The position numbers and the translations under genes are program-made. A DNA stretch of 64,000 bases from Cupriavidus phytohabitans. GTDB taxonomy: Bacteria > Pseudomonadota > Gammaproteobacteria > Burkholderiales > Burkholderiaceae. A model generated the notes under the pieces. The model did no database searches. It was not told the DNA's origin and was given only the letters and a program-made list of their open reading frames with translations. Positions 44,141-64,000 of this stretch are shown one piece after another (position 1 is the stretch's first letter; each line of letters starts with the position of its first letter). The stretch spans positions 1-64,000 of the forward strand of contig NZ_AUFE01000015.1 of NCBI RefSeq assembly GCF_000426345.1, written 5' to 3'.

Positions 44141-45828
44141 GCGGCGGCCTGTTGTTCGTTGTGTTCGTTGTTGCCGGCGCCGGAGCCGGCGTTGGCGCTG
44201 TCGGCGCTGTCGGTGCGGATGACGCCGCTGTCGCAGCGGATCACGCGGTCGGCCACGTGGAAATAGCGGTCGTCGTGGCTGACCGCGACGATGGTCTTGC
44301 CGCTGCGCTTGAGTTCCGGCAGCAGCGATTCATAGAAGTAGGCGCGGAATACCGGGTCCTGGTCGGCGGCCCATTCGTCAAGCAGCAGCACCGGCCGTGC
44401 CTCGACATAGGCCGCCAGCAGCGCCAGCCGCTTGCGCTGGCCCTGCGACAGCTGCGTGGTCGACAGCAGGTCGTCGCGGATCGAGACCTTGTGGTCCATG
44501 TGCAGCCGCTTGAGGAAAGCACTGGCAACCGCGGCGTCGAACTTGCCGTCCGGGCCAACGAGCCGCGCAAACAGATGCGCGTTGGAGAACACGGTGGCGA
44601 AATGGCTGCGGTACCAGGGCAGTTGCGCCGCGCCTACCGTGGTGCCGCCCAGCGACACACTGCCGTCCGTGGGCTGGTACAGGCCCGCCAGCAGCTTCAT
44701 CAGCGTCGATTTGCCGCTGCCGTTGCCGCCGACGATGAACACGGTCTCGCCGGCGGCCAGCGTCAGCGACACCGGGCCAAGCCGGAAGCCACGCTCGTCG
44801 CCCTGCCCCGGGTAGTCGTAGCGCACGTCCCGCAGCGCAAGCAGCGGCGTCCCAGGCGCCGGCGCCATGGCGGTGGCGTTGTCGCTGGCATGCAGCGCAA
44901 AGTCCTCGGTGTACGGCGCCAGCCGCAGCGTGTCGATCTTGCGCAGCGCGACGTTGCCGGTCATCAGGATCGGCAGCGTGCCGACCAGGTCGTTCAGCGG
45001 CATGCGCAGGAACATCAGCACCAGCACGAAGGCGGTGATGCGCTCGCGGGCAATGCCCAGCGCATCGCCGGCGATAAAGATCGCGCAGGCGAGCCCCAGG
45101 ATCAGCGCCGCGGTGAACGACAGGCTCAGCACCCAGTAGCGGTCGGCACGAACTTCATGCGCGCGCGCAAACTCGGCGGCGGGCTCGAAGTCGCGCTGGT
45201 AGAAACTCTGCTTGCGCCAGGCGTTCAGCGCCAGCTCGTAGCGGCCATCGATGGCGCCCTGGTAGCCGGCGTAGAGGCGGTCGTCGGTGTCGCGCACGGC
45301 CTTCATCAGGCCGCGCATGCGCAGCACCCAGCGCTGCGCCAGCAGCACGCCGCCGCCCAGCACCACGGCGCCGAGCACGAACAGCTGCCACGACAGCCAG
45401 CCCAGGTACAACAGGCCGCCCACCACCAGCACGCCGTTGTAGAACACGAACGGCACGCGGTTGAAGGCCATGCCGATCGAGGCGATGTCCTTGGTCAGCG
45501 TGGCATAGACGGTCGGGCCGCCGATCGCTTCCAGGCGCTCGACGTCGGTATCGAGCACGCGCTTGAGCATGCGCATGCGCATGTCGTAGACCACGCGGTG
45601 GCCCAGCGCGGTCAGCAGCGCCTGCGAGCCGAAGCCGCAGCCGAACAAGACGGCCAGCAGGCCCAGCAGGATGCCGATGCGGCCAGCTTCAAGCGCAGCC
45701 GGCGCGGCAATCATGCGGTTGATCTCGGCGATCAGCGCGATGCCCGCGAGCGCGCTGCAGGTACCCGCGGCCAGCGCCAGCAACAGCAGGCCGCCAAAGC
45801 GGCGGCGCAATGACAGGAACAGGTTCAC
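44137..45828 (-). CDS. PvdE/SyrD-type cyclic-peptide ABC exporter
   Basis: A 563-residue fused ABC half-transporter. Six helices lie in the first 320 residues. The nucleotide-binding domain has Walker A GGNGSGKST, signature LSQGQRKRLAL, Walker B PVLLLDEWAADQDP and switch His in VSHDD. This matches PvdE-type exporters that move siderophore precursors to the periplasm. The start is GTG at 45828 inside the NRPS-4 stop (GTGA), giving tight coupling. The C-terminal tail is Ser/Asn/Ala-rich. It probably exports the finished or nearly finished peptide. Confidence 0.92.
   Translation of the reverse strand: MNLFLSLRRRFGGLLLLALAAGTCSALAGIALIAEINRMIAAPAALEAGRIGILLGLLAVLFGCGFGSQALLTALGHRVVYDMRMRMLKRVLDTDVERLEAIGGPTVYATLTKDIASIGMAFNRVPFVFYNGVLVVGGLLYLGWLSWQLFVLGAVVLGGGVLLAQRWVLRMRGLMKAVRDTDDRLYAGYQGAIDGRYELALNAWRKQSFYQRDFEPAAEFARAHEVRADRYWVLSLSFTAALILGLACAIFIAGDALGIARERITAFVLVLMFLRMPLNDLVGTLPILMTGNVALRKIDTLRLAPYTEDFALHASDNATAMAPAPGTPLLALRDVRYDYPGQGDERGFRLGPVSLTLAAGETVFIVGGNGSGKSTLMKLLAGLYQPTDGSVSLGGTTVGAAQLPWYRSHFATVFSNAHLFARLVGPDGKFDAAVASAFLKRLHMDHKVSIRDDLLSTTQLSQGQRKRLALLAAYVEARPVLLLDEWAADQDPVFRAYFYESLLPELKRSGKTIVAVSHDDRYFHVADRVIRCDSGVIRTDSADSANAGSGAGNNEHNEQQAAA

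Positions 45829-64000: not shown

Follow-up and report, generated by a model that had tools for sequence, protein, structure and literature searches.

A Cupriavidus gene cluster predicted to make a cupriachelin-type siderophore, with a conserved condensation domain after the epimerase

The NRPS gene cluster that occupies the end of the window (the whole stretch of DNA analyzed, 64,000 nucleotides) and continues beyond it can be assigned with high confidence to the cupriachelin type, its predicted product, fatty acyl-OHAsp-Dab-OHAsp-Gly-D-(N5-acyl-N5-OH-Orn), being that of cupriachelin. The compound is very probably this already known photoreactive iron-scavenging lipopeptide or one very close to it, most likely cupriachelin from another Cupriavidus strain or species, and in that sense ordinary in kind. 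The "new siderophore" predicted by an earlier note on the window is resolved in this way as cupriachelin or its closest congener. How the chain is released in cupriachelin-type lines is a further question, accessible to experiment, that arises from a condensation (C) domain trailing the epimerase.

Four NRPS proteins, all on the minus strand, are encoded across 45825-64000 according to the ORF list and Pfam scans (Table 1). NRPS 1 is cut by the window end; reading the contig (130,784 bases in total) from 59000 to 83999 placed its ATG at 68628 and gave a full domain order of C-A-T-T-C-A-T-C-TauD. The four proteins, the fused Fe/2-oxoglutarate hydroxylase (the TauD domain at the C-terminus of NRPS 1), and the epimerase after hydroxyornithine (TIGR01720, 119.6 bits vs. 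a cut-off of 74.2) had all been described in the earlier note and were borne out here, while the ornithine hydroxylase and acetyltransferase that it located within 45825-64000 do exist but lie below 45825. Absent from it were the continuation of NRPS 1 with an extra C-A-T-T, the interface-type domain of NRPS 2, the trailing C domain of NRPS 3, and fhuF. None of the four NRPSs carries a fused thioesterase (TE), and neither a ligase loading domain nor a sixth A domain was found in them; the line has six condensing C domains but only five acyl or peptide bonds to form. Two minus-strand ORFs (49250-50242 and 49321-50130) were rejected as genes, having no Pfam match and lying opposite fhuF.

Table 1. 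Features of the cluster, with contig positions; residues in parentheses are predictions.
Feature	Position	Strand	Description
PepSY-associated membrane protein	37155-38879	-	PF03929, E 4.1e-62; syntenic in 5/5 Cupriavidus relatives
TonB-dependent receptor	39166-41526	-	PF00593, PF07715; predicted ferric-siderophore uptake
L-ornithine N5-monooxygenase	41541-43073	-	PF13434, E 5.7e-115; hydroxamate
GNAT N5-hydroxyornithine acyltransferase	43010-44140	-	PF13523, E 5.6e-56
ABC transporter (membrane + ATPase)	44137-45957	-	PF00664, PF00005; probable export
Gly NRPS	45825-49049	-	C-A-T, DILQLGVVWK (Gly); C-terminal tail DLAFMNDLLETL
Fur-box-like site	49223-49247	.	between divergent Gly NRPS and fhuF; 13-15 of 19 matches
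FhuF-type siderophore-iron reductase (fhuF)	49258-50061	+	PF06276, PF11575, both above cut-off
NRPS 3	50131-56163	-	C-A-T-E-C, DGEGSGGVTK (N5-OH-Orn)
NRPS 3, trailing C domain	50161-51486	-	
NRPS 3, E domain	51517-52866	-	
NRPS 2	56199-59285	-	interface-type domain (C-like, no HHxxxD)-A-T, DLTKIGHIGK (Asp -> beta-OH-Asp)
NRPS 1, C-terminal half	59278-64000	-	gene start 68628, cut by window end; end of C, A, T, C, TauD
NRPS 1, TauD domain	59281-60354	-	
NRPS 1, second A domain	62101-63621	-	DIWELTADDK (Dab)
NRPS 1, part outside window			C-A-T-T and start of the cut C domain; A domain DLTKVGHVGK (Asp)
Stand-alone TauD Asp beta-hydroxylase	68710-69783	-	beyond window, upstream of NRPS 1
Second Fur-box-like site	69919-69943		divergent promoter, beyond window

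The five pocket codes (Table 1) were read by eye from the A4/A5 motifs, at code positions set by the GrsA rule as we understand it, and the four that had been reported for the window before came out identical on this second reading. For four of the cluster's five A domains an automatic code extractor gave another residue at position 278; the manual reading was kept. As a set, the five A domains are predicted to activate Asp, Dab, Asp, Gly, and OH-Orn, codes having been matched to residues through what we take to be the general code tables. For Dab there is further evidence. The best of 15 solved-structure matches to a 197-residue piece of this A domain was an A domain of PvdL, and the two agree in the printed alignment at all nine pocket positions (D, I, W, E, L, T, A, D, and D), the matched PvdL module being, we presume, the Dab-activating one; moreover, the clustered class-III aminotransferase matches the NCBIfam diaminobutyrate--2-oxoglutarate transaminase model (751.7 vs. 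a cut-off of 671 bits). The identity of the PvdL pocket and the presence of this transaminase make the Dab assignment firm, and those of Asp, OH-Orn, and Gly are predicted from the general code tables together with the hydroxylase and hydroxamate genes. A lipopeptide siderophore line with Dab, beta-OH-Asp, OH-Orn, and Gly, as originally proposed, is supported by the codes, the Dab transaminase, and the hydroxylase and hydroxamate genes, and Cupriavidus, with whose siderophores it had been compared, is the correct genus.

Two Asp beta-hydroxylases are present, one fused and one stand-alone. A tree was built from 96 TauD-family domains of the loci retrieved. In it, one clade (support 1.0) gathers 25 of the 29 stand-alone enzymes, that of the cluster included, and none of the 67 fused domains; the fused TauD of the cluster falls outside this clade, and the other four stand-alone enzymes lie with the fused ones. 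In an Azospirillum MAG (L088:8877-9944) the hydroxylase that is elsewhere fused to NRPS 1 is a separate frame and still groups in the fused-type clade, so the clade may follow function and not fusion. NRPS 2 opens with a C-like domain without HHxxxD, before the Asp A domain and adjoining the fused TauD, which we take to be what is called an "interface domain." Since both hydroxylase subtypes are present, one L-threo and one L-erythro residue would be expected, stereochemistry being assigned here by the rule fused = L-threo. Subtypes of siderophore Asp hydroxylases have been described (PMC7100376, PMC12971057), differing in beta stereochemistry with opposite configurations (PMC7100376). The passages of PMC7100376 are inconsistent on this point, its abstract and phylogeny passage giving fused = L-threo and its introduction the reverse.

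Cupriachelins are reported to combine a lipid with OHAsp, L-Dab, OHAsp, Gly, and N-acyl-N-hydroxy-D-Orn, one OHAsp being L-threo and the other L-erythro, and the D configuration of Orn was obtained by Marfey analysis, contrary to the original assignment (PMC10484230). This residue set is covered in our cluster by the five codes, the Dab transaminase, the Orn hydroxylase, and the GNAT, and the E domain on the OH-Orn module matches the D-Orn of cupriachelin, for which it would be the genetic reason if strains H16 and B-4383 carry the same domain. Masses computed for the cupriachelin composition with a 3-hydroxybutyryl hydroxamate are 780.3622 (C8 tail) and 808.3935 (C10), and that of the Dab-to-C-terminus fragment is 523.2358; the published values are 780, 808, and the same 523.2358 (PMC10484230). 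Judged by mass, the reported cupriachelin is a free acid. In the cluster presented here the hydroxamate acyl group may be either 3-hydroxybutyryl or acetyl as far as the sequence goes. The correspondence with the cuc cluster of C. necator H16 is likewise a prediction from genes, and a search of plasmid records (E <= 1e-80) gave four matches, none of them from Cupriavidus. The residue order had been suggested to separate this cluster from cupriachelin, and the product to be possibly new. Neither suggestion is supported, as the fifth (Asp) module beyond the window makes the residue set equal to that of cupriachelin and C-domain phylogeny favors Gly before OH-Orn despite the gene order. The match was missed because module 1 lies outside the window and gene order was taken as peptide order, which illustrates two failure modes of such predictions: a module can be hidden by the window edge, and a free-standing one can be mistaken for colinear.

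The gene order would place OH-Orn before Gly. Read colinearly, the line would make fatty acyl-OHAsp-Dab-OHAsp-D-OHOrn-Gly, an isomer of cupriachelin; Gly would be coupled to D-OHOrn by the trailing C domain of NRPS 3, leaving the C domain of the Gly NRPS idle. This is unlikely, even though NRPS 2 stands directly before NRPS 3 both in the window and in five distant relatives, and the trailing C domain belongs to the post-E group (20/20 nearest neighbors) and keeps HHxxxD. The C domain of the Gly module belongs to a 31-member clade (support 0.953) in which all 21 determined donors are Asp modules (7 were left without a call), compared with 66 Asp donors among the 299 determined in the whole set of 423 C domains (124 without a call); the donors of N-terminal C domains were taken from gene order in relatives, many of them closely related. 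Two observations weigh on the other side. One step above, a clade of 37 (support 0.995) adds six other donors, and the C domain of the OH-Orn module sits in a clade of eight (support 0.992) with 5/5 Asp donors by gene order, which fits the colinear reading, the next clades adding other donors. The Gly-module C domain has a dN/dS of 0.175, like working domains, which speaks against its being idle. Also against the colinear order, a Fur-box-like site of its own stands upstream of the Gly gene, whose ortholog in 5/5 distant relatives is a separate gene on the opposite strand, upstream of NRPS 1. Finally, the core of the C-terminal tail of the Gly NRPS, [LI]AFMxxLL, was found among 119 T-ending ORFs only in the window and in one further genome (G034) and is present in 5/5 orthologs, so that docking to a further subunit is suggested. 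The separate gene, the Asp-donor clade of its C domain, and the tail make it probable, if not proven, that Gly precedes OH-Orn. The published order of cupriachelin reportedly has Gly before OH-Orn. One passage of PMC10484230 does list them in this way.

If Gly comes before OH-Orn, the line ends with the trailing C domain, NRPS 3 closing in T-E-C where a thioesterase would be expected. This domain is under purifying selection, with a dN/dS of 0.197 compared to 0.12-0.29 for the other domains (15 genome pairs). The catalytic motif HHxxxD is kept in 8/8 sequences compared (one of them cut by the locus edge), and identity to the five distant relatives (one cut) is 44-54%, against 39-47% for the first C domain and 44-48% for the E domain of the same protein. 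A dead relic was rejected on these dN/dS and identity values; the post-E grouping, the preserved motif, and a dN/dS within the range of the other domains indicate that the domain is very probably used, and its role may be release, capping, or structural. That the chain is released by this C domain after the terminal epimerase, in place of a thioesterase, is a tentative proposal that we consider possible but hardly the expected outcome. If true, it would be a C-superfamily release domain using water or a small nucleophile on the D-OH-Orn thioester, and such release would be kept across Cupriavidus, Azospirillum, Nitrospirillum, and Novosphingobium. A literature search on chain release by terminal condensation domains in siderophore lines gave one paper, which deals with Legionella. 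An intact and constrained trailing domain in a set of four NRPSs with no fused TE would also fit a cupriachelin congener with a sixth bond, in which a small amine or other nucleophile is joined to the C-terminus. We regard this as improbable, given that the cluster NRPSs have no sixth A domain, that no amine-supply gene besides the Dab transaminase was recognized among the genes scanned, and that the reported cupriachelin is a free acid.

Another C domain, the one after module 1 (contig 63670-65013, partly in the window), which takes OHAsp-1, also groups with the post-E (D-donor) C domains. No E domain precedes it, the dual C/E motif is absent, and cupriachelin OHAsp is reported as L; a dual C/E role was rejected, the motif HH[ILM]xxxxGD being present in 0/423 C domains scanned. 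Tandem T domains were likewise discarded as a mark of the stand-alone hydroxylase, as T-T precedes just 5/423 C domains (three from Cupriavidus, one from Pseudomonas, and L093) and was not found in the Azospirillum, Nitrospirillum, and Novosphingobium lines.

The genes around the NRPSs are those of an iron-scavenging system (Table 1). The TonB-dependent receptor is 89.6-98.2% identical in 5/5 Cupriavidus relatives, and the PepSY-associated protein beside it has a probable function in iron or siderophore handling. Upstream of the NRPSs, beyond the window and on the plus strand, there are genes for a thioesterase, a PPTase, and the class-III aminotransferase; further out, acyl-CoA ligase and acyl-CoA dehydrogenase genes may or may not be part of the cluster. 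The two Fur-box-like sites were scored against a presumed consensus, and three further places (18845, 75104, and 77962) pass the same threshold. Ten simple shuffles of one strand gave zero or one site each, and we treat the sites as supportive only. A short tandem repeat of ca. 9 bases, GGTGGTGCA-like on the minus strand, lies at 50060-50135 between the convergent stops of the OH-Orn NRPS and fhuF. ARAGORN called a tRNA-Ser at 62918-63002 (-), inside the coding sequence of NRPS 1, which looks like a chance match, as the window gave no Rfam hit at gathering thresholds. Away from the cluster, a run at 19667-28541 (+) encodes an AMP ligase, an LpxL-like acyltransferase, an MMPL exporter, a polysaccharide deacetylase family protein, and two ketosynthase-family proteins, presumably an aryl-polyene-type cluster.

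On the observed domain content and hydroxylase clades we infer the following assembly. The starter C domain would attach a fatty acid to Asp-1, which the stand-alone hydroxylase would oxidize to L-erythro-beta-OH-Asp. Dab supplied by the transaminase of the cluster would be added next, followed by Asp-2 through the interface-A-T protein, with the fused TauD converting it to L-threo-beta-OH-Asp. The separately encoded Gly module would act after Asp-2, and N5-acyl-N5-OH-Orn would be added last and epimerized to D. Fe(III) would then be bound by the two beta-OH-Asp and the single hydroxamate, the TonB receptor and the FhuF reductase would serve uptake, and the two Fur-box-like sites at divergent promoters would serve control.

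Within the genus, a search of 35 genomes (E <= 1e-100, at most 13 candidates scored in each) recovered an ortholog of NRPS 2 with 78-90% identity in five genomes and a 44-49% relative belonging to another line in eight. All 17 queried ORFs appear in the same order in 5/5 of the orthologous Cupriavidus loci, which are uncharacterized clusters, the 17 including one at 36783-39005 that is probably spurious and antisense to the PepSY gene. For the wider comparison, 79 loci were kept of at least 544 stretches confirmed in a scan of genome contigs. Among the matches listed, the NRPS 1/2/3 order was found in Nitrospirillum amazonense, Azospirillum melinis, an Azospirillum MAG, Novosphingobium beihaiensis, and Novosphingobium sp. 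CF614. These five uncharacterized distant lines share with ours the Asp/Dab/Asp/OH-Orn A domains (by code positions read consistently by the automatic extractor), the stand-alone hydroxylase, and the separate Gly module. They differ in sequence (34-67% identity by domain in NRPS 1 and 3), in the single T domain found in module 1, and in the Gly gene being upstream on the other strand; the interface domain was found by the C profile in one of the five.

The other Cupriavidus beta-OH-Asp lipopeptide line (G014, with relatives in C. basilensis, C. pauculus, and C. agavae loci) shares the fused TauD plus interface-A-T pair and the OH-Orn modules, with 43-49% identity to G014. C. basilensis BL-MT-10 has been reported to make taiwachelin (PMC11696751). 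On this basis we provisionally label the line "taiwachelin-type." It is longer than ours and has no Dab-code A domain among those read (all but one NRPS A domain). In spite of the shared modules, membership of our cluster in this line is extremely improbable and is refuted on architecture: in G014 a protein of the order ligase-like domain-T-C-TauD opens the line, two proteins measure 2691 and 3961 aa, and a fused TE (GWSLG) closes it, none of which is seen in the window line; a Dab module and a C-starter Asp module take their place there. The ligase-like loading domain and the fused TE are taken to be marks of the taiwachelin cluster.

Variochelin, potashchelin, and serobactin are also beta-OH-Asp lipopeptide siderophores, with other residues. 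Variochelin contains two OH-Orn, Pro, Ser, and an Arg-derived PKS unit (PMC10999976), and potashchelin is a nonapeptide (PMC7100376). From cupriachelin (cuc; Cupriavidus necator H16 and B-4383) we found no difference, the comparison being by residue set and mass with a product predicted here from its genes. Both come from the same genus and have two OHAsp, Dab, Gly, and D-OHOrn, with one threo and one erythro OHAsp (expected in our case) and one hydroxamate, and the computed masses agree.
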